The notes under the pieces are model-generated. The model saw only the letters and a program-made list of their open reading frames with translations, was not told the origin of the DNA and searched no databases. Of a stretch of 64,000 nucleotides of DNA, positions 6,950 through 48,648 are shown piece after piece; position 1 is the first letter of the stretch, and the number at the start of each line of letters is the position of its first letter. The position numbers and the translations under genes were made by a program. Origin of the DNA: Apophysomyces variabilis (Eukaryota; Mucoromycota; Mucoromycetes; Mucorales; Mucoraceae); assembly GCA_002749535.1 (NCBI GenBank), contig MZZL01000401.1, positions 296,796-360,795 of the forward strand. The letters run 5' to 3'.

Positions 6950-8247
6950 TCAAACGCGCATTTTACCCTGGGCTTGAAGTGCCATCATCTTGTTGACACG
7001 ACGTGTGAGTAGCTGCTCGGTTCGATACTGCTCGTAGAAGCGCTCGTATGTATCGATTCGAAGCATATCGCGATGAGCCGATAATAGAGTAGATTTCAAC
7101 ATTTCAAATTCGCAGTGATCAGGATTGCAGCACTCAACAACGGCCCACGGATAGCGCCGACCTAGAATAGGCTTCTGGAGCTTGTCAGATTTCTTGCGTC
7201 TATTCCTAGAAGCAGGATAGTTTTTATTGCCATTGATGGGTGTGGGTGAACCGGGTTCTTCGATATCCGAGTCCGTAGAAGTTGTTTGGCTTTGATACAC
7301 TGGCCTGCCGGTTTCTCTATCTTCCTCATAACTAATCAATGTAAACGGTATATGCTCCAGATACTCGATCATCACGGCCGCATCTTGGTCATTGTCTTCT
7401 TCAACGCATTCTTGGAGCATATCTACTATCCGTTTAATGGTAACAGAACCTTGTAGTTCACCTTCAGCCTTCTTTGCTTGCTGTACGTAGCTTTCTCTCA
7501 TTTGATCATCCTGACTGGTGTTTTCACTACTTTCTTCCATCTGATCCTCGTCAGAATCACTAACATCCTCCTCCTCGTCTTCATCACCAGTTGAAATATA
7601 TCCATAGATAGGAATATGCATCACGTCAAATATCTCTCGCCGGAAACTTTTCTTAAGTGTTTCTCGCTGTGCGGTTGTTAATGTGTCGGCTTTCCCGATG
7701 ACCGGTATGACGTTGACTCGTGAACTGAGCAGACGAATAATATAGCGATCTACATCACTGAAGACACCTTCAGTCGTGTTGATAAAATATATGCAAGTAT
7801 GGATATGTGTGTCTAATGCTTTTGCATCACGATGCACTTTGGTTTCCTAACAACCGGAGATTAAAGTTCAGAGCGTTGTATCCAACATAAACAGGCAATT
7901 ACCTCAACCAGCGTGCGTTCAAATTGGTGGTCAATGTAGTTCGTAATATAACGTAGCTGTTGGTCCGCATCAGCACCGCTAGTTAAACCTGGCGTATCGG
8001 TTACTGTGAGAGCTGTCCGCTGTCCGTTCTCTTCTAACAGCATAGATATGCTATATAAATCTTCGGTCTTCTGCAACGGTTCCTTCATCGCGGCCAGTTT
8101 TGATTCCTTGTATGTTCCCTGGACAATATTGTGTTTCATGCGCTCATAAAGCGTTTTGACAAACGCAGACTTTCCAGAACCCGCCATGCCTACCACCATG
8201 ACATTCAAATGTGACACAGCATCTTTACGGGACTTTGTTTGGCCCAT
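6950..8247 (-). CDS. divergent septin-family GTPase
   Basis: Septins are filament-forming GTPases of the cell cortex that act in septation and hyphal morphogenesis. Two exons (7903-8247 and 6950-7846) give 413 aa with frame conserved across a 56-bp intron. The P-loop GMAGSGKS is at residues 20-27, the switch II DTPG at 84-87 and the GKAD specificity motif at 166-169; THIHTCIYFI around 128-137 fits the septin core. Unusual points are an acidic, Ser/Glu-rich insertion at about residues 202-230 (GDEDEEEDVSDSDEDQ), a basic stretch before the C-terminal helices, and no long C-terminal coiled coil. It resembles non-core (AspE-like) septins more than Cdc3/10/11/12, which is an inference. The start could instead be the ATG at 8277, but a CAG just before position 8247 suggests a 5'UTR intron acceptor there. 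Confidence 0.8.
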
Positions 8248-14814: not shown

Positions 14815-15972
14815 AAATCGTTCAGTTGAAAATTGATTTTATTAGAATGCCAATGAGCACTTGCGCCATTCGGCCTATCTGCTCTAGCTAGATCGAAAAA
14901 AGAAGTAAAAAAGACTAAAGAGAAGAAAGAACTAAAAAATCCCTTGGGCTCTGAAGGGCAAAAAATGAGGAGAAAGGAATAGTGAAATAAGTAAGAGGAC
15001 CAGGGGAGCAACAATGGATAACATGGAGATATGGGGAAAGAGTGGAGAGTGTTAAGAGGACGAGTCAGGGAAAGAGGTGGTGGGGAGGAATGCCAGTGAT
15101 GCATTTGGAGGCTTGGATATCCATTGAAGAAAAGGGCTGGTTGTTGAGGATTCAGGGGTTATGTCATCCGGTGGGCGGCAGAGGCGGTCTATGTCGAGCA
15201 GTATGGAGGAGAGGGTGGGCCATATGCGTTGCCAGTGAAGTATTTGTTGTTGCGATTGAGGTGGGCGGGTGGGAAGCTGGTTTAGGGTGTAGGAGAGGGG
15301 GTCAACGACGACAACGGGCACGTTCAGTTTACTATGACACTGCAGACAAGATATCACGTGGGCACGAGAGAGCTGGGCTTGTTCAGGGCAGTTTCCACAA
15401 GGCCAAGGCTTGCCAGAAGGCATCCACCCGAGTCGCCAGCGGATACGTCGGCTGCGTTCGTGTCGAGTCATCGGTATCCATAGAATAGGGTCAATCCCTA
15501 GATAAGGCCGACAGGCTTTTAACAATACCATTTTTGGGCCTGTATAATTGTTCCAAAAGCGGTCGTGAAGAAAGGAGCGTATTTGGTTGCGAAGCAACTT
15601 AGCATCCACTGCCGAGGTGGAGGGAGGGAGTCGGCGCCAGAGGGGATTCTTTTTCAGTTGGGACCAGCGAGAGAGGCGGGAACAGTTGATGCGAGGGAGG
15701 AGAAGGGTAAGAAGGGCATCATCTGGAAGGTGTTGTGCCCGAGCTAGGAACTTTGTTTGTAGGATAGGAATCCGAGAGGACATGGCAGGAACATTACCTA
15801 AGTGGCACATAACAGCAGTCGACGAGCGACTGTGTCCGCCATATAGACATCTCAGGCAATTGTCTTGTGTGGTTTCCAATAGCTTGATTTGTGTCCCGGT
15901 CACTGGTTGAATAGCCATGCCATATTCCAGGATGGGCCGCAAGAATAAGCAAATCGTTCAAGGACAAGAGAG
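14815..15972 (-). pseudogene. 5'-truncated LINE ORF2 (reverse transcriptase C-terminus) relic
   Basis: The minus strand carries the end of a LINE ORF2 after the reverse transcriptase palm. It begins with the thumb-like RPILEYGMAIQPVTG near 15942, continues as ETTQDNCLRCLYGGH and SSRIPILQTKFLARAQHL, and has a Cys/His knuckle-like CGNCPEQAQLSRAHVISCLQC (cysteines near 15330-15380). The 3' end near 14815-14860 contains an ATAAAAT signal. Most of ORF2 (endonuclease and RT core) is missing, as expected of 5' truncation during target-primed reverse transcription. Sequence just upstream of RPILEYG shows frame breaks. The MULE transposon is inserted right at its 5' side. Confidence 0.72.
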
Positions 15973-15981
15973 ATAATCGAA
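15973..15981. repeat. target-site duplication, left copy (ATAATCGAA)
   Basis: The nine bases ATAATCGAA directly precede the first base of the MULE left inverted repeat and recur directly after its right end at 21231-21239. A 9-bp duplication is characteristic of Mutator-like elements. Confidence 0.9.
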
Positions 15982-16318
15982 GGGATTTGCCTCGGGCACT
16001 CCCCTCGGGCACTCCTCCCCCAAATTATTTGAGCGCCGTTATGATAAAGTGGACGCCGCTTGATATATAAGCCAGTAAGAATATCAAGAAATAGCGGAGG
16101 AATAAAGCACAGGTAGCATCCAAACAACTAATAAAGTGCCGGAGACATTAACAGGCTATACAAAGTATAAAACATTTACATGCTAATCTATATAATAGTC
16201 TAACTAACAACGTTATATAAAATAAAGAGAGGCTATGCATAAGAACTTTATTTAAGAAGTTGTTCAAGATATGAAGAGGGAGTGCCCGAGAAGGTAGTGT
16301 ATGAGAGAGGGAGTGCCC
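15982..16318 (+). repeat. MULE left terminal inverted repeat (337 bp)
   Basis: Read base by base, this segment matches the reverse complement of 20894-21230 with no mismatch seen. The outer end carries the decamer CGGGCACTCC twice (near 15993 and 16005). The inner end carries the opposite-strand form GGAGTGCCC twice (near 16279 and 16310). These are good candidates for transposase-binding sites. Confidence 0.93.
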
Positions 16319-17294
16319 CAGAATTCATCGGAGTGTATAATGGACTGCCTACCTTTCATTGGAGCTTTGGGAATAGGATCACCCCAGAAAGTGGTAGATC
16401 TCTAATAGTCAGATGCCCCAGACATCACTACAATGTCTAGAACTAAAGCATGTAAAAAATTAAAAGGTTCGGTTGGGTTTGATAATATGATAGATCCAGC
16501 ACAAAGCAAAACCTAAATTAAAGCTGCTTACTTTGTAAATGTCGCCTACCAAGTAGATCATATTTTCAATAGCAGGTTTAAGTATATATTTAATTTAGAC
16601 TTAGGTTTTCATTCAGTAATCGTAACTAATTACGGGTGTACTTGTAAATAGCACGATTAATCTTCTACGTCAAGTAAAACCAATAAGCAGCAAATAAATC
16701 GGTGATAATCTTTTCGGTTAATGTAACTAATACGACATAATAAGCGGCACTCAAAAAAAAAAGATACCTACACAATGGGGAAAACTTTTAAAAAAAAGAG
16801 AAAAAGAAAAGGCATTGTCCGAAGTTTTGGGGATATCTAGAATTAGTGCCATATGATATACGAACTAGCAAAGAAAAAAAGGAAACAAACAAAGTCTAAC
16901 TTTAGGATGCATGCAAAGATTGGTTATTTATACAACGACATGAGCAAAGGTCTGCAAGAGAAAGAAAAAAGGACAAATGTCTATCTCAGCGTCAAAAAGC
17001 TATGTTATAATAAGTAGCGAAAATCACAAACTACACGCATACATAATAAAGCCACTTCTAGCTGAAATCAAATACTATATACCATATAACCCCATAAAAA
17101 ATCCCCAAGTCGATCGGATCACTTATTGATCTGCGGCAGGCATTGTGTATAAATATAGGGGCAATGTTCAGCTAACTGGTCTTTGCAATTCTCGTTACAA
17201 ACTTATTTGATGTAAGTAACCGCTATACGTTTATTGGGAAGGAACTAATGCCGTGTAATGTTTTATATGCTTTCAGATTATTCCCGCTATTAAG
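16319..17294. other. MULE 5' internal noncoding region
   Basis: About 980 bp of AT-rich sequence between the left repeat and the start codon, holding the presumed promoter. A probable 5'UTR intron runs from the GTAAGT at 17212 to the CAG ending at 17276. No second gene was seen on either strand. Confidence 0.6.
17148..17157 (+). promoter_or_regulatory. TATA box of the MULE gene
   Basis: TATAAATATA lies about 140 bp upstream of the transposase ATG and about 60 bp upstream of the likely 5'UTR intron donor, a normal TATA spacing for a start site near 17180. Function is inferred from position. Confidence 0.5.
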
Positions 17295-20200
17295 ATGCTT
17301 GATTTGATCAATACTGTCTATAACACCAAAGCTGAAGTTCTTACAGCCGCCCAAGTAAAGGCAAAGGAGCATGGATTTGCTGTTGTGACCAAGAGAAGCA
17401 ATGACAAGTCCATCTACATCAAGTGTGTTCATGGTGGAAAGTATAAGAACTGCCATGGTGTTACTGAAGAAGACCGGAAGCTCAATCGATCTACTGTCAG
17501 ATGCGATTGTCCCTGGCAAATGCGCGCATCATTCACCAAGCCTTTGCAAAAGTGGGTGGTGCGTTTTGTTGAGCAGCCGGACGTTCACAATCATGACATG
17601 GCCAAGGACGTCAGAATCTATCATCAGCATCGCGTTGCTACTGACGAAATGCAAGAGAGAATGGTGTCTATGACCAAAAATGAGAACAGGCCGGCAAAGA
17701 TATATGAAGAGATTCGAGGTGACGATGGCCAGCCAGTATTGAATATGAAAGATATATATACTTTCAGACAAAAAATTTTTGCACAAGACCGTAACGGCCA
17801 ATTCAGCAAGTTGTTTACTTTTTTGATCAAGCATGATTACATAGTTCGGTACAATTTGGCAGATGATGAGAAGACGTTGGACGCGATATTTATTAGCCAT
17901 GCAAACGCTATCCAAAAGGCACGCTGCTTTCCCGAGGTGGTTTTGATCGATGCTACATACAATACCAGTTCCACCAAGATGCCCCTCGTTAACATAGTTG
18001 GAATCAGCAATCTAGGGTCTGAAAAGCTGCGAACATTTCTCATTGCCTCTGCGCTGGTGACAAATGAAAAACGAGAGTCGTATGCATACATTGCTCAGCA
18101 AATGCAATCCGTGATCTGGCAATCAGAAAATCCGGGACTCTTTGTAACCGATAACGAAAAGGCATTGATCGGCGCGCTCGAGGAGACATTTCCCACTTCA
18201 AACCATATACTCTGCGCATGGCATATGAAAATGCACCTAAAAGATCGGTTTAAGGGCAGTTTTAAAGACGATAGCGAGGAGTCAAAAGAACTGGAAGCTG
18301 CCATTAATACGATGCTATACACGCGCACGGACGAGAAATTTACAAAAGCGGAGGATAACTACCGTAGCTTGGCGAAGAAAGCAGCTAAAATTCAAGTTGA
18401 CAATGACAATGACAAAAAAAGAAAAAGGCAAAAGAAGAACCAGGGAAAGATGAGTAAGAAGCAGAAGCAAGCAGAGTCTAAAATCAGCAACGACGATTGT
18501 ACAACAGATCCAGAGAAAGTAGAAGACATTCAAGACAAAAGGAAGGAGAAAATAAAAAAAGAAGAGCGCAAAAAAGCCATTGCCAAGAAAGAAAAAACCA
18601 TCCTTGATTATCTTGACAGGTATGGAACAGATTTTTTTTGCTGTATCATTACTGCTTATTAACATAACAATTATTGCTAGTGTACTATTGTATAAGAAAA
18701 AGTGGGCAGGACCAGAAGCTGAGAAATATCTGCATTTGGGAGCAAGAACGACACAGCGTGCTGAGGGTACACATTGGCGTATCAAAGAAACATTACAGAG
18801 TACTGGAAACCTGCTAAAAACATTTAATGCGATCGATATCTGGATGCGCAAAACGGTATGTAGCGTTTTTTCTAATAAATACAGTGCAAAACTTGGTATT
18901 AATTATAACAAATTTCATGCTTCTAGGCTGAACAAGAGCGATGCGAATTTTTCACTGAAAAGCACAAGATGCCAGTTATCGATGAAGTACACCAAGAAGC
19001 GCTTAAACCTTTGCTGGGGAACATATCTTTCTTTGCAATTAACGTTGTAAAAAGACAACTTCAAAGGTTGCGGAAGGCCCAATCAAAGAATAAGGGAAGT
19101 TCTTATTCAAACCAGGAACCTTGTTCATGTTCAAAGCCTATCAACTATGGTTTACCTTGTCAACATATGCTCCCAGCAGCAGGGGCCATCCCTCTTGATC
19201 TTATTCCTGCTAGATGGCATTTATCAACTTCTGAATGTAAGTTCATTTGTTAAACATAAACAGGGCTATTTAATGATTAATAATACCTACATAGTTACCA
19301 CACTGCCACTGACGTCAAAGTCCTCGGATATGGACGTACAAGAAGAATGTTCTGCGTTGCTATATGATATTGAAAAGCTTCTTCAAGAAGCAGAAACCGA
19401 CCAACAACGTCTAAATCTGGTTTCTCAGCTAAGGTCATTTATGAAAACTACGTTGAAGTCTACTGCTCTGTCGGATATCACTCTCCTTGTGGTAAAACCT
19501 AAAGGACGTCCAAAATCAACCAAAGGAAAGAGAAAGGCTTCAAAATTCGAAGATACAGCTAAAAAAGCAGAGAAAGAAAAGAAGAAAAAGAAGAAGGAGA
19601 AGAGAGAGACAAACAAGCATACGTCAGATGATACAGAGTCAGCAAGAGGAGAAACAATAGAAGCAGACAAGGAAGATGATCTATTTGTACTTCCAGCAAA
19701 ACGGGATCTTGAAGACAAATACATAGAGGAATCTAGGCGTAAAAGGTTAGGAAGACTTCACTTCCAGTATTTCATGTTAACCATAGGCTCAATAGAAGCA
19801 AGGTCAACCCGCCGGTCAAAACTATTCACTTTAAGGTGAACTCGTCCATACCAATGGAGTGCTACAACGGTACAATTGATGTCAAATCAGACGGTTGGTG
19901 TGGCTTCCGAACAATTGCTTTGTTAGCAAAGGGTAACGAGGATGAATTTCCCGCAGTGAAAGCAGACATGATCAGAACGTTGGATAAGTATGCCGACATT
20001 TACAGAAAGATTTTTAACTACGATGTGGACGAGTTGCGAACCATTATTTCCTACGGAATCACTTTCCAGGAGCCATATCCACCATGCCCAATGGAATACT
20101 GGTTTATATCACCGTATTGTGTACAAATTGCTGCAGACACATACGAAACACCAATCGCCCTTTACTCAGATGACGAAAGCAGAAATGCAGCGGGGGACTT

Positions 20201-20492
20201 GATATATCAGCCGTTGCTTTACATGCCGCATATGCGCCCCAAAAAAGGATCAAGACCAATTCCATACATCATACATCATGTCAGTAACTGTCATTGGGCA
20301 ACCATCAAACTTAAAAGGAGTATAAAGATGACATGGCCGATGGTTGATCATTTTTGTGAAGAGGCCATTAAGCAGCTAAATCCAAAAAATCCCATAAGAA
20401 CATTTTGGAGATATCTCTCTATTCAAAAAAAGAAAAAAACAGATCAAGCTGTAGTAAATAGTGATAAATATATAGAAATTATTGAAGATTAA
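17295..20492 (+). CDS. MULE transposase fused to an OTU-type cysteine protease
   Basis: Five exons (17295-18619, 18681-18855, 18927-19236, 19295-19745, 19787-20492) sum to 2967 nt, giving 988 aa. Residues 1-110 are a FAR1/WRKY-GCM1-like DNA-binding region (C44, C53, C70, C72, H98, H100). The transposase core has D219 (VVLIDATYN), D286 (FVTDNEKAL), CAWHMKMH at 307-314 and E470 (TQRAEGTHWR); a Lys/Glu-rich insertion (about 362-435) lies before that Glu. A SWIM finger has C566, C568, C578 and H580 (GLPCQHML). A Lys-rich linker (about 655-750, with a KPKGRPK AT-hook-like string) leads to an OTU domain at about 780-930. Its DGWCGFR carries D789 and C792, and NCHWATIKL carries H923. Excision and insertion by the DDE core is established for the family. 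What the protease does for the element is unknown. The OTU part joins the transposase only through a 41-bp intron (19746-19786), so transcript data should confirm the fusion. Confidence 0.9.
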
Positions 20493-20818
20493 AAGCCTCT
20501 ACACTAAAAGCTTGCAAACAATATATAATATTTTTTAGTACACATTTTTAGTTATCTTCAATTATGGCTGTAGTGATTATCATGTAATCAGATTTTCTGT
20601 TTGATTTTTATTTCCAGACTTTTACAAAACTGCAAGTTATACATTGTTTATTTGCCTTAATTTTTAACTTGTTGGCACTTTTAGACATTCTAGTGATGGT
20701 TGACCTGATCTTACCGAATTGATTTATATGTGTAGCTGTAGCCATAATGGAAAGTAGCAGTTAGGTTTCTTAGCATTTTTATTAGGGCTTCCTACTTCTC
20801 CTGGGCACTCCGTTATAG
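20493..20818. other. MULE 3' internal noncoding region
   Basis: AT-rich sequence downstream of the transposase stop, with several T-rich tracts and one isolated CTGGGCACTCC near 20801. No coding sequence was seen. Confidence 0.5.
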
Positions 20819-20941
20819 ACACTACCTTCTCGGGCACTCCCTCTCTCACACACTACCTTCTGGGGCACTCCCTCTCTCACACACTACCTTCTCGGGCACT
20901 CCCTCTCTCATACACTACCTTCTCGGGCACTCCCTCTTCAT
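20819..20941 (+). repeat. 31-bp tandem repeat at the inner edge of the right TIR
   Basis: Four head-to-tail units (20819-20849, 20850-20880, 20881-20911, 20912-20941) share the pattern ACACTACCTTCTcGGGCACT followed by CCCTCTCTCAc; the last unit is one base shorter. The array crosses the inner boundary of the right inverted repeat, so the left end holds only about 1.5 units. Each unit contains the GGGCACTCC core that also occurs at the extreme ends. Confidence 0.9.
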
Positions 20942-21230
20942 ATCTTGAACAACTTCTTAAATAAAGTTCTTATGCATAGCCTCTCTTTATTTTATATAAC
21001 GTTGTTAGTTAGACTATTATATAGATTAGCATGTAAATGTTTTATACTTTGTATAGCCTGTTAATGTCTCCGGCACTTTATTAGTTGTTTGGATGCTACC
21101 TGTGCTTTATTCCTCCGCTATTTCTTGATATTCTTACTGGCTTATATATCAAGCGGCGTCCACTTTATCATAACGGCGCTCAAATAATTTGGGGGAGGAG
21201 TGCCCGAGGGGAGTGCCCGAGGCAAATCCC
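20894..21230 (-). repeat. MULE right terminal inverted repeat (337 bp)
   Basis: Reverse complement of the left repeat at 15982-16318, with no mismatch found by eye. It ends GAGTGCCCGAGGCAAATCCC and is followed directly by the right target-site copy. Confidence 0.93.
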
Positions 21231-21239
21231 ATAATCGAA
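21231..21239. repeat. target-site duplication, right copy (ATAATCGAA)
   Basis: Identical to the nine bases at 15973-15981. Together they mark the insertion point and the element boundaries. Confidence 0.9.
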
Positions 21240-47360: not shown

Positions 47361-48648
47361 ATGTCTAAAGACTTTGTGTCGCACCTACCTACCGAACTAG
47401 TTCGTCACATCTTTTTAAATTTATCTTTCAGAGATTATCTTGTCTGTCTCTCCGTTTGTCATGGTTGGCGCTCTTGGACTCTTGCGTGGGCTGAATTCTG
47501 GGCAAATCTGGATTTCGCTACTTGTTTCCTCGTCCCTATCCGTATCACCTTGCAACAAATCATGTCTGTTCGTACTGGAAGATGTATCCGACGGTTTTCA
47601 GCGTATGCCCGACAGGAAGTTTTGAAATCAGCATTTGAAACGCTTATCGAAAACGAATGTCGGTCTCTGAAAACCTTGGGTAACAAGAAAAAACAGCTAT
47701 TTATCGAGAAAGCTTAAGAAACTTGTTCTTTCTCTCTCTCAAGAGCTGATTCAATGTGATATTCCACAAGAAACGTTCCTGTACATGACTCAAAGCATCG
47801 GGTTGCATCTGACTCATCTACGACTGGAAAGCTGCAAAGGTGTACCCCTAACGTTCGTCTTTGGGTCGGTGCTGGCAGCCTGTCCTCGGTTGAGCCATTT
47901 GTCACTCAAAGGTGGCGAAGATACTATGACAGAAGATATCCAGCAGAAAACAATTATTCCAGCAAACTTAATACTCCTTGACTTGTCGTGTCTTAGTAGT
48001 GGCTATCTTAGTCACCGTACCTTATCCAATATCCTTCCACGATGCACCGAGCTGAGGTATATCATGTTATATGGCAACAAAGTTGGAAGCACGGGTTCTC
48101 TCTGCAGGCTGATTCAGCAACATTGCCTATATATGCGAGAAGTATTCATCGATCCATACTACTTGGATGTAGAGAGTTTGGCATGGAAAGCATACCTTGA
48201 AGAGATACCCATCCTATCGGCTACAGGACTGACCAAGTTGATTTTGCGTGACGCAAGTCTTACCGACGAAGGCATTATACCGTTAGTTCAAGTTGCTCAC
48301 CTTAGCCTAGAAGTCCTTGATCTTGCTATGAATCGTGAAATAACAGAGAGATTTGCTCTTCTTCTGGCAAGTATAGGTGCGCCTCGACTGAGGGAGATCA
48401 ATCTGGAAAGATGCCCAAATATAACCGAAAGCGGACTATATGCAGTTCTTCAGGCGTGTCCAGCATTAGAGCTGGTTGACCTTTCCTACAACCCAAACGT
48501 CACAGATAATGTACTGAAATGTCTAGTTCAGCTCCAACACTTAATCAAACTGAATATCAGAGGGTGTTGTAACCTAGCAAGACCTAGCGTGCAAAAAATG
48601 ATAATGCAGACCAAACATCGGTCGAACTTTTCTATAAATTTTTCTTAA
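47361..48648 (+). CDS. F-box / leucine-rich-repeat protein
   Basis: Two exons (47361-47662, 47709-48648) sum to 1242 nt, giving 413 aa; the 46-bp intron was placed by frame closure (CG|A). The F-box is at the N-terminus (SHLPTELVRHIFLNLSFRDY then LVCLSVCHGWRSW). LRR units follow with the consensus of cysteine-containing LRRs (RLREINLERCPNITESGLYA; ALELVDLSYNPNVTDNVLK; HLIKLNIRGCCNLARPSV). Such proteins serve as substrate adaptors of SCF ubiquitin ligases, binding Skp1 via the F-box; the target is unknown. An in-frame ATG at 47277 would add 28 residues of basic sequence (KKKTKNPRKRS); the inner ATG was preferred because the F-box begins just after it. Confidence 0.85.

Follow-up and report, generated by a model that had tools for sequence, protein, structure and literature searches.

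Analysis of a 64,000-nucleotide stretch of the Apophysomyces variabilis genome (referred to as the window) revealed a complete Mutator-like element (MULE) of 5249 bp (positions 15982 to 21230, plus strand). Its gene, located at 17295 to 20492 within the element, joins a MULE transposase to a predicted OTU-like cysteine protease domain. The anatomy alone (element, gene, and domains) is close to certain. With slightly better than even confidence, we regard the whole as a recently active MULE, autonomous by its sequence, whose single gene product is a transposase with a tethered predicted OTU deubiquitinase that would protect the transposase/DNA complex.

The ends of the element were determined by alignment of its terminal inverted repeats (TIRs) and by comparison of the flanks. 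The left TIR (342 bp; 15982 to 16323, plus strand) is identical at 341 of 342 positions to the right TIR (342 bp; 20889 to 21230, minus strand), from which copies of a 31-bp minisatellite continue inward. A 9-bp target-site duplication (TSD), ATAATCGAA, is present on the left at 15973 to 15981 and on the right at 21231 to 21239; the two copies match at 9 of 9 positions, and the length lies within the 8 to 11 bp expected for MULEs. A second copy of the element was detected on contig C113 (L033), with a 9-bp duplication of its own, TAACAAGTG. The gene of this copy is identical to that in the window (17295 to 20492) at every letter, and over their full length the two elements differ only by a 62-bp insert and one base. 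The insert (969 to 1030 in L033, at window position 16319) consists of two extra units of the minisatellite, whose copy number varies at the inner TIR ends (window 16319 and 20800 to 20930). The identical gene and the near identity overall indicate recent movement. A TSD of 9 bp was found in the window copy, L033, L034, and L048. By our reading, it comprises 8 bp in L037 and matches at 8 of 9 positions in L050; it is not clear in L035, L038, L041, L043, and L044.

The surroundings of both elements were also inspected. L033 and L048 belong to different MULE-OTU families and adjoin each other at G000:C113:278631-288224. The duplication that flanks L048 (AGTGGTCAA) shares bases with the one on the right side of L033 (TAACAAGTG, with GTCAAG after it), which indicates that one element inserted beside the other. 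In the window, an open frame at 15052 to 15957 (minus strand) resembles, by reading and with no Pfam match, a LINE-type protein in its C-terminal portion. This DNA has copies elsewhere in the genome, and the best of these copies end at about window position 15946, 35 bp from the MULE. The window also contains a septin gene (6953 to 7843, minus strand; Pfam E value of 2.4e-33) and a gene for a leucine-rich repeat (LRR) protein (47671 to 48645, plus strand; Pfam E value of 1.1e-7).

The gene comprises five exons on the plus strand (17295 to 18619, 18681 to 18855, 18927 to 19236, 19295 to 19745, and 19787 to 20492) with a spliced length of 2967 nt. As the original prediction had stated, they join to a single frame of 988 codons plus stop with no internal stop codon, and the residues named in it (D219, D286, E470, C566, C568, C578, H580, D789, C792, and H923) were all found at their positions. 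Exon 1 encodes an AFT-type DNA-binding domain (residues 14 to 101) and the part of the DDE core with D219 and D286, exon 2 contributes E470 of the core, and exon 3 contains a SWIM-like zinc finger motif (C566-x-C568...C578-x-H580). Exon 4 encodes a lysine-rich linker with a GRPKS motif, and exon 5 encodes the predicted OTU-like domain (D789, C792, and H923) and the stop codon. The four coding introns (61, 71, 58, and 41 nt) are all of the GT-AG type. Five canonical splice pairs had been predicted: four are present in the coding part, and the fifth would belong to the 5' leader, where the window sequence alone suggests a candidate intron (GTAAGT...TTTCAG; 17212 to 17276, plus strand). In this leader, the upstream frame is closed by a stop codon, and no later ATG occurs there.

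A Pfam search with the full protein identified three families: the MULE core (PF10551; E value of 4.4e-22; 78.8 bits with a cutoff of 27.6), the AFT family at the N terminus (PF08731; E value of 1.8e-5; 25.4 bits with a cutoff of 21.6), and the RNaseH-like model of ZSWIM1/3, which overlaps the MULE core. AFT is a DNA-binding domain of the WRKY-GCM1 kind, which MULEs carry at the N terminus. Some plant MULEs, of the Kaonashi type, carry a ULP1-like SUMO protease; no Ulp1 match was present among the three Pfam families on the full protein, and no integrase match was obtained either. Pfam likewise revealed no SWIM domain on the full protein, in which the CxCx9CxH motif is present. Alignment with relatives placed D219, D286, and E470 in a conserved context. 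The SWIM-like cysteines and histidine are largely conserved in the related proteins P0001, P0002, and P0003, and the second cysteine is replaced by tyrosine in P0004 and by glycine in an Ascomycete set. By eye, the GRP-K motif of the linker was also recognized in P0001, P0002, P0004, P0017, and P0020, the last of which (named as from the oomycete Albugo candida, on a 912-bp contig) has a Mucorales-like linker and OTU, which may stem from contamination or transfer. The Pfam MULE match, the TIRs with 341 of 342 identical positions, and the 9-bp TSD support the predicted identity of the transposase. Membership in the Pack-MULE class, whose elements have no transposase of their own and carry host gene fragments, was ruled out by the intact transposase frame.

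Assignment of exon 5 relied on its relatives. Searching Pfam and NCBIfam gave no OTU match for the window exon, and searching the Protein Data Bank (PDB) with this exon alone gave no OTU and a single chance-level match, to Nesprin-1 (E value of 0.29). An OTU profile, A2, was built from 11 rows, i.e., the window exon, seven copies from the same genome, and three protein tails. The profile of the 11 relatives retrieved 12 PDB sequences up to an E value of 10, with OTUD5 as the best (E value of 9.5e-7). The matches comprised two OTUD5 entries (3tmo and 3pfy), OTUD1, OTUD3, VCPIP1, and seven viral proteins named polymerase, replicase, or papain-like protease, whose chains are presumably OTU or papain-like proteases. 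The D-G-x-C motif aligned with both OTUD5 structures, and with a second profile the alignment with 3tmo extended to the catalytic histidine. Pfam analysis of the 11 A2 rows gave one OTU match (E value of 0.16) and one C65 match (E value of 0.039), neither of which is significant. The domain is called OTU-like here because it lacks a curated Pfam OTU or C65 match. In the numbering of the OTU exon, D35 and C38 are invariant in two alignments (A1 and A2) and H169 is nearly so (at least 90% in A2). This conservation spans families of the same genome that are 36 to 65% identical to the window exon as well as other fungal proteins. With AlphaFold2, the mean pLDDT of the OTU exon was 58 when four rows were supplied and 77 (pTM of 0.76) with fourteen rows; in the model, the cysteine begins a helix and the histidine begins a strand.

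The prediction of an OTU-like cysteine protease domain in exon 5 is thus supported by the profile of relatives and by the conserved D/C/H residues; a Pfam OTU match of the exon itself did not materialize. That missing match could also mean that the domain has no activity and is retained for contacts, as a structural module or one that binds ubiquitin. The fairly close copy L008/L037, whose transposase also contains stops, has DSWC instead of DGWC and thereby lacks the G of the DG motif, as an inactive module might. We consider this improbable, since D and C are invariant and H is nearly so across the families of this genome and other fungal proteins, and the plant protein P0006 keeps both D and C.

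The transposase and OTU portions meet at a short intron of 41 nt (19746 to 19786, plus strand; phase 2, donor GTTAGG), and only the removal of this intron brings the OTU exon into frame with exon 4. Junctions were measured in six loci (window, L035, L042, L043, L045, and L050), selected by judgement as one per family among the listed junctions of 22 copies. In 6 of 6 families, a GT-AG intron of 41 to 65 nt occupies the same place, and phase-2 splicing leaves an open frame. In L042, L043, and L045, the short stretch tested reads open in a second phase as well, but it is phase 2 that yields the conserved protein. Counting against the fusion are the shortness of the window intron, its GTTAGG donor, and the decayed copy L040, which has AC at the expected acceptor AG. 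P0001, a protein of 983 amino acids (aa) from a 3037-bp contig that is genomic or RNA-derived, contains the DDE core, the SWIM motif, and the OTU domain in one uninterrupted frame. The shared phase-2 intron supports in-frame splicing, as had been proposed, and a chance join of transposase and OTU was rejected on this ground.

In maize MuDR, mudrB lies beside mudrA, and by analogy the OTU could be a separate second protein of the element that appears to be joined by chance. The OTU frame does contain an ATG at 19854, and the unspliced frame of exon 4 stops at 19839. However, a methionine is absent at the corresponding place in the 10 other A2 rows, the junction intron has the same place and phase in all six families, and P0001 combines all three parts in its single frame, all of which make a separate protein very improbable. 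A separate second OTU gene was rejected on the basis of the shared intron and the absence of the methionine from the other A2 rows.

To describe the spread of the fusion in A. variabilis, at least 84 matches to the OTU query were grouped into 62 clusters and at least 101 matches to the exon-1 query into 69 clusters. Among the matches listed, 40 of the 69 transposase clusters are followed on their strand by an OTU match at most 3.5 kb downstream, at a distance of 1.08 to 1.50 kb in 32 of these 40. Related MULE copies do carry the OTU part, whose absence from them would have spoken against the original prediction. Only three pairs show another arrangement, all of them neighboring tandem elements, and 23 OTU clusters have no transposase match in reach (both among the matches listed). 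Counting against a general association, 29 of the 69 transposase clusters lack an OTU within 3.5 kb among the matches listed, and 7 of the 29 were inspected. L053, L054, and L056 stop before the OTU, and L057 and L058 keep OTU remnants; L055 contains the linker, and an OTU match lies roughly 6 kb beyond it on that strand; L051 contains the linker, no OTU, and 50 N. No complete OTU-less element was seen among these seven clusters; an OTU-less branch of related MULEs may exist. At five other loci, the OTU sequence lies between the TIRs of its own element: L035 (TIRs of 329 bp, 99.1% identity), L048 (260 bp, 98.8%, with AGTGGTCAA on both flanks as a 9/9 duplication), L050 (226 bp), L043 (148 bp), and L041 (147 bp; OTU match ending at residue 891). 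A frame of 3991 aa with an OTU piece on contig C29 was discarded because a run of N had been read as open.

Comparison of the families revealed that the OTU and transposase halves diverge at similar rates and are under purifying selection. Identities to the window copy were 65% (OTU) and 71% (MULE) for L011/L035, 45% and 47% for L020/L045, and 46% and 41% for L042. Between families, pS ranged from 0.83 to 0.96 versus a pN of 0.18 to 0.40. Synonymous sites are saturated at this distance, and pS and pN are therefore given as such; a dN/dS ratio was obtained only for the closer OTU pair L016/L023 (pS of 0.32, pN of 0.10). MULEs are known to capture pieces of host genes, as stated in the available text of a MULE survey (PMC6446971), and the OTU could accordingly be a passenger fragment of the Pack-MULE kind, captured by chance. 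The chance of this is next to negligible: the domain occurs in many families, is under selection, and diverges in step with the transposase. Moreover, against A2, the two host loci that Pfam OTU detected reached 13.6 bits (L001) and no match (L002) versus 152 to 267 bits for four fungal proteins outside the profile (P0015 to P0018). This is a weak test of host OTU kinship, since introns or stops break up both L001 and L002. Recent capture by this copy was rejected, as the OTU is common to many families and under selection, and a capture long ago, at the base of the clade, remains likely.

The fused architecture was also found in P0001, in P0003 from Thamnidium elegans, in P0004 from Mucor mucedo, and in the plant protein P0006 from Vicia villosa. 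P0003 and P0004 are shorter annotated proteins in which parts of the transposase are missing and the OTU is present; in P0017, from Blakeslea trispora, the linker is joined to the OTU. P0001, P0003, and P0004 contributed rows to A2, and only the scores of P0015 to P0018 therefore count as outside evidence. P0006 contains the AFT-type and MULE Pfam domains and an OTU-like C terminus with the motif DGNCGFRA (29.8 bits against A2). The protein stops short of the matching histidine, and N replaces D286 and C replaces H580. A fragment from Vaccinium darrowii (P0024) reached 58.7 bits; both plant scores exceed those of the interrupted host loci L001 and L002. No significant OTU match was obtained in P0008 to P0012 (648 to 806 aa; Ascomycete plus one other), P0013, and P0014, which indicates that not all MULEs share the fusion. 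In P0002 (747 aa), the sequence ends in the linker and the OTU is absent; none was seen in the plant proteins P0005 and P0007 either. Searching with residues 755 to 988 within full-length proteins gave no match at an E value of 0.001 among 445 candidates; P0001 and P0003 exist and went unmatched, which we attribute to a word-filter limit.

In a phylogenetic tree with the Ascomycete set chosen as the outgroup, all other fungal rows formed one group (99/97), with the three plant rows next to it. Rows containing stops were read with X, and P0004 was left out. Together with the meeting of long branches and the choice of outgroup, this makes a single origin of the fusion common to plants and fungi only a lead, and the plant and fungal joinings could be separate events. 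The original prediction held that this element independently took up the protease. This was not supported: among the matches listed, the OTU accompanies 40 of the 69 transposase clusters, and it recurs in M. mucedo, T. elegans, P0001, and, more distantly, the plant proteins P0006 and P0024. Since the OTU is common to many diverged families, other fungi, and plants, the joining appears to be older than this element, and the comparison favors one old joining over acquisition by this element.

The fusion to the transposase, the conservation of the catalytic residues, and the selection on the domain argue for a use in transposition. In the mechanism that we propose, the N-terminal domain of the transposase would bind the element ends and the DDE core would perform cut and paste. 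The tethered OTU isopeptidase would strip ubiquitin from the transposase or from proteins of its DNA complex, and these proteins would thereby escape the proteasome during transposition. That the transposase itself or the proteins of the DNA complex are the preferred target has, in our estimation, not quite an even chance; second in rank is ubiquitin carried by chromatin, or by repair proteins, at the donor or target site. The ranking follows from the tethering and from precedent, nothing beyond. The role in protection from the proteasome is adopted from the part of PMC9741609 available to us, in which it is suggested that deubiquitinases of the VTD class in Helitrons might keep proteins required for transposition from being degraded by the proteasome. 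The available text of PMC2836005 suggests a connection with DNA repair.

Decay of related copies bears on a chromatin function. Relative to window positions 15982 to 21230, C>T/G>A changes account for 168 of 176 differences in L034 (G000:C79) and for 253 of 261 in L037 (G000:C42). In these two copies, respectively, 28% and 42% of the CpG sites are affected, compared with 8.5% and 12% of the CpA sites. A third decayed copy, L038, has a broader mutation spectrum. The bias suggests that the two former copies were subject to cytosine-directed mutation or methylation, and their decay appears to reflect either repeat-directed mutation or the deamination of methyl-cytosine at work in A. variabilis. 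An OTU fused to a transposase with a DNA-binding domain might deubiquitinate histones or silencing factors, either where the element lies or at its target, countering silencing or opening the target, and the almost exclusive C>T/G>A changes in L034 and L037, highest at CpG, would suit such a conflict. However, ordinary methyl-cytosine deamination may produce this decay with no need for counter-defense, and L038 departs from the pattern; we consider a chromatin function unlikely. The long lysine-rich linker between the two halves would suit a protease that cleaves the fusion and so sets itself free from the transposase, in the manner of viral polyprotein proteases; processing polyproteins is a frequent task of viral deubiquitinases, as noted in the available part of PMC9741609. 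Against this, the product is a single fusion and no polyprotein, which leaves self-processing quite improbable. The preferred reading remains protection of the transposase/DNA complex by its own predicted deubiquitinase. With two elements that share an identical intact gene and several diverged families, this genome is suited to testing whether a transposase needs such a deubiquitinase.

Comparison with known systems revealed partial counterparts, described here from the available portions of the cited papers. Ginger1 elements also encode a DNA transposase with a C-terminal OTU or Ulp1 domain and have TIRs of 44 to 270 bp, but their transposase resembles Gypsy integrases and carries a GPY/F motif, and the hosts tabulated are animals (PMC2836005). 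In contrast, the window element has a MULE DDE core, a SWIM-like motif, a 9-bp duplication, and a fungal host. MULEs with a Ulp1-like SUMO protease likewise combine the Mutator superfamily with a cysteine isopeptidase, which is Ulp1 and not OTU (PMC2836005). Helitrons and Helentrons with OTU and VTD domains share the principle of a transposon protein with a built-in deubiquitinase-type domain, but this protein is a rolling-circle RepHel and not a DDE transposase (PMC9741609, PMC6431247). According to the same portions, the activity of transposon OTU domains had yet to be assayed as of 2022 (PMC9741609). MULE-Mucorales elements are Mucoromycota MULEs with a SWIM finger and one open reading frame; by their table description, with which alone they were compared, they differ in a 10-bp TSD and a 40-bp TIR, and no OTU is named (PMC6446971). 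The term "otu" occurs 0 times in the main text of that survey (PMC6446971). OTUD5 (3tmo and 3pfy) has no transposase part, and its similarity to the window OTU is distant.

A literature search, with many journals outside its coverage, found no published MULE-OTU fusion. The OTU domains of Ginger1 and Helitrons and the Ulp1 of MULEs are already in print, as far as the available parts of these papers extend (PMC2836005, PMC6431247, PMC9741609), and the MULE-OTU pairing is apparently new. As a tentative proposal, held with more doubt than confidence, the MULE-OTU fusions may form one old, unrecognized clade that extends from Mucoromycota to flowering plants and in which deubiquitination in cis became a fixed requirement of transposition. 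Proteases for ubiquitin-like tags have joined transposon proteins repeatedly, as the available text describes for Ginger1, Helitrons, and plant MULEs with Ulp1 (PMC2836005, PMC9741609). If the proposal is true, then together with Ginger1-OTU, Helitron-OTU/VTD, and MULE-Ulp1 it would suggest that removal of ubiquitin-like tags is a general need of eukaryotic DNA transposons.
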